Assembly (NCBI GenBank): GCA_027310755.1
Contig: DAIDAE010000009.1
Span: forward strand, 1-35,077
Source: Candidatus Micrarchaeaceae archaeon
GTDB taxonomy: Archaea > Micrarchaeota > Micrarchaeia > Micrarchaeales > Micrarchaeaceae
Length of the DNA stretch: 35,077 bases
Direction of reading: 5' to 3'
Shown here: positions 15,706-30,508 of the stretch, one piece after another
How positions within the stretch are numbered: position 1 is the first letter of the stretch
How the letters are laid out: every line of letters starts with the position of its first letter
The notes under the pieces: generated by a model
What the model saw: only the letters and a program-made list of their open reading frames with translations
Databases searched by the model: none
Told to the model about the DNA's origin: nothing
Program-made: the position numbers and the translations under genes

Positions 15706-16716
15706 TCAACCCATTTCTCCTCTGTCTCCAGTCCAGAGGGCGTTTTGAGATTCTTTTGGATCCCCCTTGAAGGCCTCGAGCTGATCCTCCTGCTTGGAAA
15801 TCGTGTTTTCCATACCCTCAATCCACATTATCAGCAGCTGCCGCCTCTCCTTTCCGACCTGCGGGTCCAGCACCTCCTCCTTAAGCCTGGCGACCGCCTC
15901 CTTTTGGTTTGCGATCATTTCCTCCGGTGTGGTTGGATTGCCAAGCGCTATTATAACGGTCTCATCGTGACTCCCGCCCTTTGGGCGATGGTACTCCCTT
16001 GCCTCATCTGCGGATTGCCGCAACCATACTTGAAAGTCCTTGGTGAACTCCGGGTCTCTGCTTGCTCCGGTGCTTACGCTCTCCCATACCCTCACGAACG
16101 CATCCTCGACTTCCGTCAGCATCCTTGCGGCGGGGCCCAGTGCTTCAAGATCGCGCCTCACCGCCGTCATCGTTTTCATTTCGTCCTTGGCGTTTATCAC
16201 AGTGTATTTTACAAGCGCCATGGCCAGCGAGGCGCCACCGGCATTGCGCAGGCGCCTGAAAGCCTCGTTCTCGGTTTCGCCCTTTTCCCTGAGGGCGGCT
16301 TCGAGCATGTTCACCACGGCCAGCTCACCGGATTTTCTCGTGCGAGGGTCTTTGGATGCTCTCTCCAACATTTCTATCTTCAAGTCTGTGGCCGCGAGCT
16401 CAGCTCTTGCCCTAGAGACGTATTCCGCTCCAGAAAACATGAGCCCCCTGGCTTTCGGATGGATGCCCGGCATTTCCTCAAACCTCCTTACCAACGAAGG
16501 TATCACTTCCTTGTCCCATTTTTCCGCTTCCTTCCGGAAAACGGACCTCAGGCCCTCGGGCAACCTTTCTTCCATCGAGCGATCCAGAAGCACCTTATGG
16601 TCGGTTGTTGCCTCCTTTAGCATTTCGCCTGTCATCCACAGTTCTTTCACGCTTTCTAGGACTTCCCGGTCCTCAACGGTTCTGATTGTGCCCACCACAA
16701 TATCCCAATTAGACAT
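15706..16716 (-). CDS. Unknown soluble helical protein (336 residues)
   Basis: I do not recognise this protein. It has no signal peptide, membrane segment or cysteine motif. It is highly charged and almost entirely helical in appearance, with Ala/Glu/Arg-rich stretches (ELAATDLKIEMLERASKDPR, RRDLEALGPAARMLTEVEDA) and only short strand-like segments, such as ETVIIALGNPTTPEEM near 265. The last 60 residues could form coiled coils. The ATG is clear, and TATA-like stretches lie at 16727-16738 and 16749-16758. It stands alone between the ribosomal operon and priL, so context gives no function. It may be lineage-specific. Confidence 0.75.
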   Translation of the reverse strand: MSNWDIVVGTIRTVEDREVLESVKELWMTGEMLKEATTDHKVLLDRSMEERLPEGLRSVFRKEAEKWDKEVIPSLVRRFEEMPGIHPKARGLMFSGAEYVSRARAELAATDLKIEMLERASKDPRTRKSGELAVVNMLEAALREKGETENEAFRRLRNAGGASLAMALVKYTVINAKDEMKTMTAVRRDLEALGPAARMLTEVEDAFVRVWESVSTGASRDPEFTKDFQVWLRQSADEAREYHRPKGGSHDETVIIALGNPTTPEEMIANQKEAVARLKEEVLDPQVGKERRQLLIMWIEGMENTISKQEDQLEAFKGDPKESQNALWTGDRGEMG

Positions 16717-16942: not shown

Positions 16943-17905
16943 ATGTATACGAAGGAACAGCTTGATTTTGCTTACAAATATCCTTTTTCTGAAGAGGGAA
17001 AAATCATAATAAGGGAACTCGAACCAAAGGGGATAGACCAGAAGCACCTTATCATAGGCAGGGCGCGCGTGGAGGAGGCGCTCGAGAAGGGAAAAATAGA
17101 CTACGTCGCAATGGAATACGGAAAGGCAGACTTCGTGATTGGTTATGTGTATGCTAGAATGCTGGTGAGTGCGCTGAAATCGCCAGGGAGCACAACGAGA
17201 TACGCGGCCGCAGAGGCGGCGAGAGCCGCAGACGCGCTCATGAAAGACAATGATGTGAATCTGCTGCGGCTGGCGCGGGAGGTTGGAATTGAGGTTGCGA
17301 AGGAGAATACCGACTCGTTCTCATTGAACTTTGCGCAGTTCCTTGCAAATGCACCAATAGAACAGGACTACACCCTTGCAAATCATAAACTCAATCGCGG
17401 GGTGGTAACACTTGACCGGTACCAGACAATAAAGACACTGGGAATTGCAATAACCAAAAGTATCATGAGGGGACTGCCCATAAAAGCGTCGGAAATGCCA
17501 AAGACCGTGTTGGAGTACTCCAGGGAAATAAGGATCCCAGTAGCTAAGGTGGAATTGAGGGAGGGCCCTGATAGCATCTACTGGATAGACAAACTGCTCG
17601 CCACCCCGATATTTGATGCAAGGCACAGGACGGTCAACCTTATACTGGCGCCGTACCTCGTTACAATAAAGGGCATGCCGGTTGAGAAGGCCGCAGAGAA
17701 GATATCCAACTATATCGCGCTGTGCAAAACGGTCAACCCTGATACAAAGATAACTGACAGGTATATAAGATACCAGTGTGAATACGCAAAGTCCCACGGA
17801 TTGAAGCCGCTTTCACTCGCGAGGGCGAGGACGGAACTCGGAGGCAGCATAGATTTTGACATAGTATTTGGAGGGAGTGCAGAACAGAAAGGGGATGGAA
17901 AATGA
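16943..17905 (+). CDS. priL: DNA primase large subunit (PriL-like), without the four cluster cysteines
   Basis: The 320-residue protein fits archaeal PriL in its first 200 residues: KYPFSEEGK near 12, VIGYVYARMLVSALKSPGST, TRYAAAEAARAADALMKDND and HKLNRGVVTLDRYQ. The C-terminal part (IYWIDKLLATPIFDARHRTV, LILAPYLVTIKG, then HGLKPLSLARAR) resembles the shorter PriX-like version of the domain. Standard PriL binds a [4Fe-4S] cluster through four cysteines; here only two exist (in IALCK and YQCEY). PriL supports the PriS catalytic subunit in primer synthesis, and PriS is not in the window. I chose the ATG at 16943 over an upstream TTG because the family begins near the YPF segment. Confidence 0.75.
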   Translation: MYTKEQLDFAYKYPFSEEGKIIIRELEPKGIDQKHLIIGRARVEEALEKGKIDYVAMEYGKADFVIGYVYARMLVSALKSPGSTTRYAAAEAARAADALMKDNDVNLLRLAREVGIEVAKENTDSFSLNFAQFLANAPIEQDYTLANHKLNRGVVTLDRYQTIKTLGIAITKSIMRGLPIKASEMPKTVLEYSREIRIPVAKVELREGPDSIYWIDKLLATPIFDARHRTVNLILAPYLVTIKGMPVEKAAEKISNYIALCKTVNPDTKITDRYIRYQCEYAKSHGLKPLSLARARTELGGSIDFDIVFGGSAEQKGDGK

Positions 17906-18045
17906 GCGATATTAAGAGGCTGTGCGACTCTTGCGGCAAAATTGCCGAGCATACGTGCAAACTCTGTGGAAGAGGGGCCTGCAGCAGACATTATGATGAA
18001 AAGCTTGGCATCTGCGCTTCGTGCAGGCGTGGAAGAAGGACTTAA
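17902..18045 (+). CDS. 47-residue zinc-finger protein overlapping priL
   Basis: The ATG overlaps the priL stop by four bases (ATGA), so the two are translationally coupled. The 47 residues contain C8, C11, C19, C22, C27, H30, C38 and C41 in CDSCGK, TCKLCGRG, ACSRHY and GICASC. That is enough for two zinc ions in a cross-brace, as in HIT-type or B-box-like fingers, and the tail is basic (RRGRRT). Such small fingers usually mediate protein or nucleic-acid contacts. Coupling to priL suggests a replication accessory role, which is inference. Confidence 0.75.
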   Translation: MSDIKRLCDSCGKIAEHTCKLCGRGACSRHYDEKLGICASCRRGRRT

Positions 18046-18082: not shown

Positions 18083-18198
18083 TGTCAAACGGTAATAGGA
18101 GCAGTGAAACGCCCGATCCCATTCCGAACTCGGAAGCTAAGCCTGCTCACGATATGTGTGTACTGGCTTCGGCCGGGAAAGCATATTGCTGTTTGGCA
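18083..18198 (+). rRNA. rrf: 5S ribosomal RNA
   Basis: The internal CGATCCCATTCCGAACTCGG followed by AAGCTAAGC is the 5S signature. The two ends pair as a terminal helix: TGTCAAAC at the start with GTTTGGCA at the end, including G-U pairs. The length of about 116 bases fits 5S, and the ends are set by this helix to within a few bases. No 16S, 23S or tRNA gene accompanies it, so the rRNA genes are dispersed. A T-run (18203-18207) follows within ten bases. Confidence 0.95.
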
Positions 18199-18272: not shown

Positions 18273-18656
18273 ATGGCAAATAGCACAGCCGCTGCGAAAA
18301 GAGATCCATGGAACAAAACCTCGCCAGAAACAATACAGAAACTGGTTGAAGCCTATAGGGCAGGGGAGACACCTACCGTGCGCACTGCCGCAAAATTCGC
18401 AGGGGTAAGCGCACCTACCGCGCACAAGTACCTTAGACGGGAAAATGCTATTGTGCGCTCCAGAAACCAGATAAGCAGGGCCCAGTTTGAGCTCATTTTG
18501 ATGGCTGATAGGGAGCTTCGCATATCGAAAGTCGATGGCGCAGTGTACGCACATGTAAGCTATCCTACATATGTCCGCGTGTTAAGGGAACTGGAAACAA
18601 GCGCCAAGCACGTGGCAGAAGCAAGAAGACTGATGCGAACAAAACCAAGAGACTAG
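18273..18656 (+). CDS. Small helix-turn-helix protein
   Basis: The 127-residue basic protein has an HTH of the resolvase or transposase-regulator kind near residues 20-57 (PETIQKLVEAYRAGETPTVR, then TAAKFAGVSAPTAHKYLRR). A second helical part (SRAQFELILMADRELRISKV, then VLRELETSAKHVAEARRL) may dimerise. It probably binds DNA, but no target or family is evident. TATA-like ATAAATATCATAAAA lies about 35 bases upstream. Its stop overlaps by four bases the end of the convergent CheD-like gene. No catalytic domain or inverted repeats accompany it, so a mobile-element origin is not supported. Confidence 0.75.
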   Translation: MANSTAAAKRDPWNKTSPETIQKLVEAYRAGETPTVRTAAKFAGVSAPTAHKYLRRENAIVRSRNQISRAQFELILMADRELRISKVDGAVYAHVSYPTYVRVLRELETSAKHVAEARRLMRTKPRD

Positions 18657-28384: not shown

Positions 28385-30508
28385 TCAGATGACGACCTTT
28401 GGAACCGTTGCCGGGATCGTCTGGGCCTGATCCTGCTCCCTGGGATACTTCGGCTTGAACACAGGGAAATTGTCCACTGGTATTCCGCCATTGATCGGCA
28501 TTGCAAAGTAGTCCTTCATATTAGCGTACGTCTTCAGGAACAGCGGTGTCTGTTCCAGCTTCTTCACGTCCCTGATGTACTTGTCCGCACGATAGTTCCA
28601 ATTCGGGTTCATCTTCTGCCACTCCTTGGCTGGGATCGAGTACTGCTTCTGGATCTTGTCCCTGTATACTTCCGGGAACACGTTGAACGTGCAGAACGGA
28701 AGCACCTGCCCGTCCGGCATGGCGTAGTGGATATCACACTTCTCCACCCTGTGTATATCATACGTATGCTCGTCCTGGAAGTGCATCATTCCCAGGAACA
28801 ACGTCTTGCTGTGCAGCGCGCCCATGGCATTGAAGTCATTCTTCAGGAATATGTTCATCAGCATCTTGGAGAAGTTGAGCGACTTCGGCTGCTTCTGCTT
28901 ATCGATTATTTTTGGGAGCGCCAACAGGGTCTTCATTGCGATAGCCCTTCTTGCTATCCTTCCTTTCCCGCTCATCTCGTTCACCGCGTTCTGCAGCATC
29001 TCTACCATTCCCGCAGCATCGACAAACTCGGTAATCGGAATCAGATGGTTGTCCTCATCCAGGAACAGGTATGTGGCGGCCCCGCATGCAAAGTGTATTG
29101 AGAGGTCGTACTTGTACTGGCCGGTAAGCGCCTCTATGAACTTGTTTATCCCACCGACATATGGCACGGAGAACCAGTGTTCCTTCCTTATCACACCGTG
29201 CGTCTGCTGCTCTATCTCCTTTATCGCCCCGGGGATTGTTATCCTCTGCTTCTCCCTGAGCCTTGTCGGCATCCTCCCTACCAGCGACACGGGCTGGAAG
29301 TTTACCGCTCTCACAACATCGAGATTGTTGAGAGCAAAGTTTATCATCGCGCCCATTTCGTGATTGTTGATCCCCCTTATCACTGTCGGGACCATCACGA
29401 TCCCTATCTTTGCCTGCCTGCAAGCGTCAAGGGCGGATGGCACCTCCCAGTAATTCTTTGGGTTTGTCCTTGGGCTGACTCCGTCGCAGCTCATATAAAG
29501 CGTTCCTGCACCAGCCGCCTTTACCTGCTTTGCAAGCTCCGGGTCTTGTCCAAGTATGATACCTGTCGTGTTGAGCTGTATCTGGTCGAAGCCCGCCTTC
29601 TTGGCCTTTCTTATCACTTCGACCACCTCGGGATGCATCATGGGCTCGCCCCCCGTTATCTGGAGCGCGTTTGCCGGTATCGGCTTTGCAGCCTTAAGGT
29701 TCCTGAATATCTTGTCGAGCTCGTCCACCGTCGGCTCGTATATTGGCTCCCCCTCCTTTGCATAGAAGAAGCAGTACCAGCAGCTTAGGTGGCACCTGTT
29801 CGTAATAACAACATTTGCAAGCCCGGTATGGGTTTTATGCCTCTCGCATATGCCGCAATCAAATGGGCAGTTTTGCCCCTGCCCGAGATAATTGGGATTG
29901 TCAAGGCCCCTTCCAAAGTAGTTGTACCTCTTCATCTTGGTATACATCTCATAGTCCTCCCAGTATTTCTCCGTGGCCCACTTGTGCTCCGGGCAGAACT
30001 TCCTAATCATCACATAGTCCCCATCCTTATATATCGTCCCGGGAATGATCAGCTTGCATTCCGGACAGACCGTCATGGTCTTCTCTATCACTGGCATCTT
30101 TTCCACTTCCTCTATTGTCCTGTGATAGCAGGCGAACAACGGATCTGTGGAATTCGTGGGATCGTCCATCCTCACTTCCGGCCTTTTGCTGTTCACCTCC
30201 TCGAATTCGGTCTTCTCCACCTTCTGGACCGTTATAGTCTTATGGCGCTGCTTCTGCTCTGAATGCGAATGTGAAACGGCTGATTTGCCTATATCGGCCT
30301 CTGCTGCTCCGCATCCGCAGCTTCCGCCACCGCATGCGCATCCGGAATCGCCCTCTTTCTTTGCCTCAGCATCTGCGCCTGCGCCACAACCGCAGCTTCC
30401 ATTCCCGCAGCCGCAGCTTTCCCCTGACTCGGCCATGCTGCCCGTGTCCAAACTATTAATGGATTGATCTAGATTTTCTTCCCCTATATGAACCATTGGT
30501 CCTGGCAT
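28385..30508 (-). CDS. tes: Radical SAM enzyme, tetraether lipid synthase-like, with Cys-Gly repeat tail
   Basis: The 707-residue protein has a radical SAM motif, C239-x3-C243-x2-C246 in TNRCHLSCWYCFF, then ITGGEPMMHPE. Before it come CPEC and CPEH (C148, C151, C172, H175, rubredoxin-like) and CPFDCGICERHKTH (C214, C218, C221). This arrangement fits the MJ0619/Tes family; Tes joins phytanyl chains to form macrocyclic and tetraether lipids. An additional N-terminal part holds two near-identical units (SCGCGNGSCGCG at 31-42, GCACGGGSCGCG at 56-67) that could bind metal. The start is set by GGAGGTG six bases before the ATG, with a TATA box upstream. Other radical SAM chemistry is possible. Confidence 0.82.
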   Translation of the reverse strand: MPGPMVHIGEENLDQSINSLDTGSMAESGESCGCGNGSCGCGAGADAEAKKEGDSGCACGGGSCGCGAAEADIGKSAVSHSHSEQKQRHKTITVQKVEKTEFEEVNSKRPEVRMDDPTNSTDPLFACYHRTIEEVEKMPVIEKTMTVCPECKLIIPGTIYKDGDYVMIRKFCPEHKWATEKYWEDYEMYTKMKRYNYFGRGLDNPNYLGQGQNCPFDCGICERHKTHTGLANVVITNRCHLSCWYCFFYAKEGEPIYEPTVDELDKIFRNLKAAKPIPANALQITGGEPMMHPEVVEVIRKAKKAGFDQIQLNTTGIILGQDPELAKQVKAAGAGTLYMSCDGVSPRTNPKNYWEVPSALDACRQAKIGIVMVPTVIRGINNHEMGAMINFALNNLDVVRAVNFQPVSLVGRMPTRLREKQRITIPGAIKEIEQQTHGVIRKEHWFSVPYVGGINKFIEALTGQYKYDLSIHFACGAATYLFLDEDNHLIPITEFVDAAGMVEMLQNAVNEMSGKGRIARRAIAMKTLLALPKIIDKQKQPKSLNFSKMLMNIFLKNDFNAMGALHSKTLFLGMMHFQDEHTYDIHRVEKCDIHYAMPDGQVLPFCTFNVFPEVYRDKIQKQYSIPAKEWQKMNPNWNYRADKYIRDVKKLEQTPLFLKTYANMKDYFAMPINGGIPVDNFPVFKPKYPREQDQAQTIPATVPKVVI

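Follow-up and report, generated by a model that had tools for sequence, protein, structure and literature searches.

Does the large subunit of an archaeal primase need its iron-sulfur cluster? The redox role of the primase Fe-S cluster in the start and hand-off of the primer is disputed, and the question is raised anew by a gene found in a 35,077-nt stretch of DNA from a Candidatus Micrarchaeaceae archaeon (the whole stretch analysed is called the window below). The protein product of this gene has exactly two cysteines, C261 and C279, and a preliminary description had presented it as a PriL N-terminal domain with a PriX-like end, unable to hold the usual cluster. The features on which the analysis rests are the following.

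16943..17905, + strand: gene of the PriL-PriX fusion subunit, 320 aa (translation, NCBIfam, Pfam, PDB 5ofn_B)
17051..17545, + strand: PriL N-terminal (PriS-docking) domain, residues 37-201 (NF002588; Foldseek match to the 1zt2 PriL core)
17546..17578, + strand: interdomain linker, residues 202-212 (low confidence in AlphaFold2, pLDDT<50 at 203-207)
17579..17845, + strand: PriX domain, residues 213-301 (NF033412, PF18689; Foldseek match to 4wyh)
17582..17584, + strand: W214, aligned with the first Fe-S ligand Cys (Trp in all 60 of the clade, Cys in 15/15 sister PriL)
17615..17629, + strand: D225-A-R227-H-R229, matching the NTP triad D70/R72/R74 of S. solfataricus PriX (phmmer alignment to 5ofn_B)
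17723..17725, + strand: C261, kept in 60/60, off the ligand positions (joint alignment)
17777..17779, + strand: C279, kept in 57/60, off the ligand positions (joint alignment)
17902..18045, + strand: gene of a 47-aa zinc-finger protein, its ATG overlapping the PriL-X stop by 4 nt (ATGA); weak PF14445/C5HCH-like match

A PriL N-terminal domain joined to PriX

The open reading frame begins with an ATG at 16943, a start common to close relatives (MYT..LDFAYKYPFS), and its stop ends at 17905. Profile comparison bears out the composite make-up given in the preliminary description, with PriL and PriX models matching in one frame. The NCBIfam PriL models match residues ~37-205 with E-values from 9.4e-20 to 1e-5, the scores for this N-terminal half alone lying below those models' full-length cut-offs. 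The PriX domain is matched by NCBIfam model NF033412 at residues 213-301 (E=3.9e-27, 94.5 bits, cut-off 50) and by Pfam PF18689 at residues 213-296 (E=3.3e-10, 40.6 bits, cut-off 25), PriX being the single domain that Pfam detects in the protein. Given these two PriX E-values and the order-wide pattern presented below, the fusion is not a product of chance.

In the sequence search against PDB the top match, and the sole match extending over both domains, was 5ofn_B (E=2e-10). This entry is an engineered protein in which S. solfataricus PriL 1-211 is joined to PriX 42-154, with the Fe-S domain omitted (Holzer et al. 2017, PMC5700102); the engineered Chimera is reported to be fully active in primer synthesis and to support reconstituted DNA replication (PMC5700102). 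The natural protein has the same plan, an N-terminal PriL domain followed by PriX, with no Fe-S domain, the same triad and PriS as a separate protein, and the joint falls at almost the same place (about 1-200/213-301 here). Unlike the engineered Chimera, it is encoded by a natural chromosomal gene of a whole order in another phylum, is about 20% identical to it and carries a clade-specific cysteine pair.

The AlphaFold2 model, built from a 47-row alignment, has a mean pLDDT of 91.8 and a pTM of 0.65, with the linker poorly determined at 203-207. Foldseek matched the C-terminal half of the model to PriX 4wyh (TMt 0.81, rmsd 1.9) and the N-terminal half to PriL 1zt2 (TMt 0.72); the predicted structure is thus that of a primase subunit, and the identity proposed for the gene stands. 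The triad residues D225, R227 and R229 are invariant in 60/60 distinct full-length relatives, and W214, P222, A236-P237-Y238, C261, Y277 and Q278 are also invariant in the 47-sequence alignment. Helix 227-242 of the model starts at R227, as expected of the N-turn of a phosphate-binding helix. In Sulfolobus PriX, phosphates are bound by the 72-RKR-74 motif, at the central helix's N-turn, and replacement of triad residues by Ala abolished or severely impaired initiation while leaving extension unaffected (PMC5700102).

The loss of the cluster can be followed column by column in a joint alignment of 60 proteins of the fusion clade with 15 Fe-S PriL from sister families of the same class. The four ligand columns hold Cys in 15, 14, 14 and 14 of the 15 sister proteins versus 0/60 in the fusion clade, where the first ligand is replaced by the invariant Trp (W214), the second mostly by Leu, and the third and fourth columns are deleted. 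Neither cysteine of our protein stands at a ligand position, which bears out the earlier description of a protein unable to hold the usual cluster.

It is very probable that the gene encodes the regulatory large subunit of the archaeal chromosomal primase, with a covalently joined PriX in place of PriL's Fe-S C-terminal domain and no cluster involved. Cluster-free initiation is the direct reading of a protein that combines a PriL N-terminal domain with a PriX domain, lacks the cluster and has the whole NTP triad; together with the Chimera precedent (PMC5700102), these features support the earlier suggestion that primers would be initiated without Fe-S. We infer the biochemical activity of the fusion and its docking on PriS, and the mechanism is carried over from the Sulfolobus experiments. 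By that analogy the separately encoded PriS would elongate the primer and the PriL N-terminal half would dock on PriS, while the PriX half, moving on its linker, would bring the initiating NTP into the PriS site, holding on afterwards to the 5'-triphosphate end of the primer, with no Fe-S cluster in any step. Sulfolobus PriX is tethered by its N-terminal tail to the Fe-S domain of PriL (review PMC6393858); covalent fusion of PriL to PriX would make both the tail and that domain unnecessary.

Primase genes of the host, the order and the phylum

The host assembly is an 870-kb, 90%-complete MAG, and in it a search with PF04104 found no second PriL at E<=10; the four-Cys PriL that would speak against a cluster-free reading is absent from this assembly. 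Other members of the order, single-contig genomes included, likewise have no second PriL. PriX occurs in the host once, in the fusion. PriS also occurs once, on a separate contig, with the motifs LIFDLD, SGNRGYH and RLPNTIHG intact. Most of the sister-family loci examined have priS after priL, unlike the fusion gene, which has no priS beside it. The host is not short of Fe-S proteins, since two lie in the window itself, one 4Fe-4S ferredoxin-like and the other of the radical SAM type. The radical SAM protein (28385-30508, - strand) has an HMPTM-type zinc ribbon and unusual N-terminal Cys-Gly repeats (CGCGNGSCGCG...CACGGGSCGCG).

The survey covered 295 Micrarchaeota genomes, 136 of them outside the order of the window. 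PriX was found in 139 of the 295, all from two families of this order, and in 51/51 of the order's good genomes; the 20 order members with no PriX match are all <90% complete. None of the 136 sampled genomes outside the order has PriX, and 101 of them carry full-length Fe-S PriL (PF04104), of which no copy was found in the surveyed genomes of the order. PF04104 does give 14 weak partial matches inside the order; these lie upstream of the PriX part in the same frames and are confined to model positions 2-86, so none is an Fe-S domain. PriS is present in 113/118 genomes of the order and in 51/51 good ones. About 35 genomes outside the order match neither PriX nor PF04104; some of them may have a very divergent PriL (as in L079, G108; E 2.2e-7) or none.

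Among named genomes a scan found 80 fusion loci, two of them titled Marsarchaeota (probably mislabelled) and 78 titled Candidatus Micrarchaeota, Micrarchaeaceae or Micrarchaeum. One of the 80 belongs to Ca. Micrarchaeum sp. A_DKE, on a complete chromosome and at 43% identity. No PriX was found on plasmids.

PriX has been described as specific to Sulfolobales or to some crenarchaea (PMC9258230, PMC12770985). The fused domain is like Sulfolobales PriX (4wyh, 5of3) in fold, triad, absence of a cluster and profile matches above the cut-offs; it differs in being fused, in organisms with no Fe-S PriL, whereas Sulfolobales PriX is a third subunit with a flexible tail beside a full Fe-S PriL. With the canonical PriL of archaea and eukaryotes (PF04104) the protein shares the PriS-docking N-terminal domain and, probably, the role of initiation subunit; unlike canonical PriL, that of sister Micrarchaeota included, it has lost the four-Cys [4Fe-4S] C-terminal domain. 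DPANN surveys show Micrarchaeota with ordinary PriS and PriL (PMC7414124, PMC8407392), and the phylum was placed among lineages with separate priS and priL (PMC7414124). A rearranged primase in small-genome archaea is also seen in the PriS-PriL fusions of DPANN cluster 2 and Undinarchaeota (PMC7414124), but there PriS and PriL are joined to each other, while here PriL is joined to PriX. A literature search of partial reach produced no description of a natural PriL-PriX fusion; NCBI classes its PriX model as a 'domain', a hint that annotators may already have met fused forms.

The adjacent finger gene and other readings of the locus

The fusion gene is overlapped at its stop by the gene of the cysteine-rich 47-aa protein. 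A related finger gene lies at -5 to 38 nt from the fusion in 72/80 named loci, and the finger is directly downstream of the fusion in 65 of the 75 survey genomes of the order; in six of these fusion-bearing genomes, single-contig G011 included, it was not detected, and in four it is located elsewhere. The cysteine pattern (CxxC-CxxCG-C..H/D-C..C) and the cross-brace model look zinc-like rather than Fe-S, a weak indication; the fold search gave no significant match (best E 0.38), the likeness to a cross-brace being an impression only. Homologous fingers in sister-family loci (L188-L203) adjoin other genes, not primase, standing in five loci after what we take to be the aIF2-gamma gene and in four beside what is presumably endonuclease III, both recognised by eye. 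Directly 3' of the finger gene, on the same strand, is a 5S rRNA gene (18085-18197; Rfam RF00001, 76 bits), the only rRNA gene in the window. The cluster of primase, finger and 5S genes is flanked by genes of a 336-aa protein (15706-16716, - strand) and a 127-aa protein (18273-18656, + strand), neither of which has a Pfam match at E<=0.001.

The finger had been put forward as a donor of the cluster or a compensator for its absence, and the comparison does not support this idea. That the neighbour supplies or replaces the cluster, making a composite Fe-S primase, is suggested by the close and frequent adjacency and by the 4-nt overlap seen here; we find it scarcely credible, with zinc-type ligand spacing, fusion-bearing genomes in which the finger is undetected or displaced, and sister-family homologues that keep other company. 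Nor is compensation needed, since the Sulfolobus Chimera primes fully without a cluster. A new site made by the C261/C279 pair (as a structural disulfide, a thiol switch or one half of a metal site between subunits) that takes over a role of the cluster is quite improbable: the two residues are conserved, in 60/60 and 57/60, among relatives of about 40% identity, but they lie away from the ligand positions, Ile or Val stands in for C279 in three members of the clade, and the helices that hold them in the model (247-264 and 272-285) may simply use them for core packing. DPANN phyla are all reported to have DnaG (PMC8407392) and archaeal primase is also active in double-strand break repair (PMC12019639), so that DnaG might do the priming and PriS with PriL-X might serve repair rather than replication; this reading is highly improbable in view of the presence of both PriS and PriL-X in every one of the 51 good genomes, despite strong genome reduction, with catalytic motifs and initiation triad intact. 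A broader proposal, that the rebuilt primase of the order consists of PriS, PriL-X and the finger as a new, usually co-translated accessory subunit (for template/primer binding or for hand-off), with the cysteine pair stabilising the cluster-free domain, is offered tentatively and is unlikely as it stands.

Origin of the C-terminal domain and significance

The fused C-terminal domain could have come from a PriX or from the clade's own PriL. In hhalign comparisons it matches Sulfolobus PriX with E=1.1e-13 (probability 98%) and the C-terminal domain of sister-family PriL with E=1.1e-4 (probability 28%, end-to-end alignment), whereas no match is seen between the sister PriL domain and Sulfolobus PriX (E=0.55). 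A domain that matches both, when those two do not match each other, supports a common descent of PriX and the Fe-S domain of PriL. For the N-terminal half the relationship to sister-family PriL is clear, the best whole-frame match there (L034) scoring 102 bits and Sulfolobus PriL 16.9 bits. In a tree of the N-terminal halves, with only a fragment of Sulfolobus PriL as the outgroup, fusion and canonical forms fit a single split with the fewest possible changes, though with weak support and long branches; the tree is poorly resolved, and a single origin is no more than consistent with the data.

A single replacement, in the ancestor of the order, is the most likely history; on the simplest account that ancestor retained its own PriL N-terminal half and gained the PriX half once. 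The main alternative to a gain of PriX is that the native domain was converted, the PriL C-terminal domain already present in the clade having lost its cluster and come to look like PriX. PriX has indeed been described as a diverged homologue of the PriL C-terminal domain (PMC12019639), and the end-to-end alignment with the sister domain (YQCEYAKSHGLKPLSL vs YQVEHAAKRGYKTPSC) agrees with conversion. We nevertheless hold it to be rather unlikely, as the domain is far nearer to Sulfolobus PriX than to the sister domain and its D-x-R-x-R triad is of the PriX type and absent from the canonical PriL set.

With gain of PriX as the preferred account, nature has the same fusion that was once engineered to show Fe-S-free primer start, and the fused domain provides an intermediate sequence linking PriX with the C-terminal domain of PriL. 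The 2017 test was made with an engineered fusion from one species, whose native primase retains the Fe-S PriL. Here a whole archaeal order appears to replicate its chromosome with the Chimera design and with no Fe-S PriL, yet it encodes 4Fe-4S proteins. The question of the cluster can be tested on a natural cluster-free enzyme, for instance that of Ca. Micrarchaeum sp. A_DKE, whose genome is complete. The order-wide fusion makes the primase cluster dispensable in evolution.
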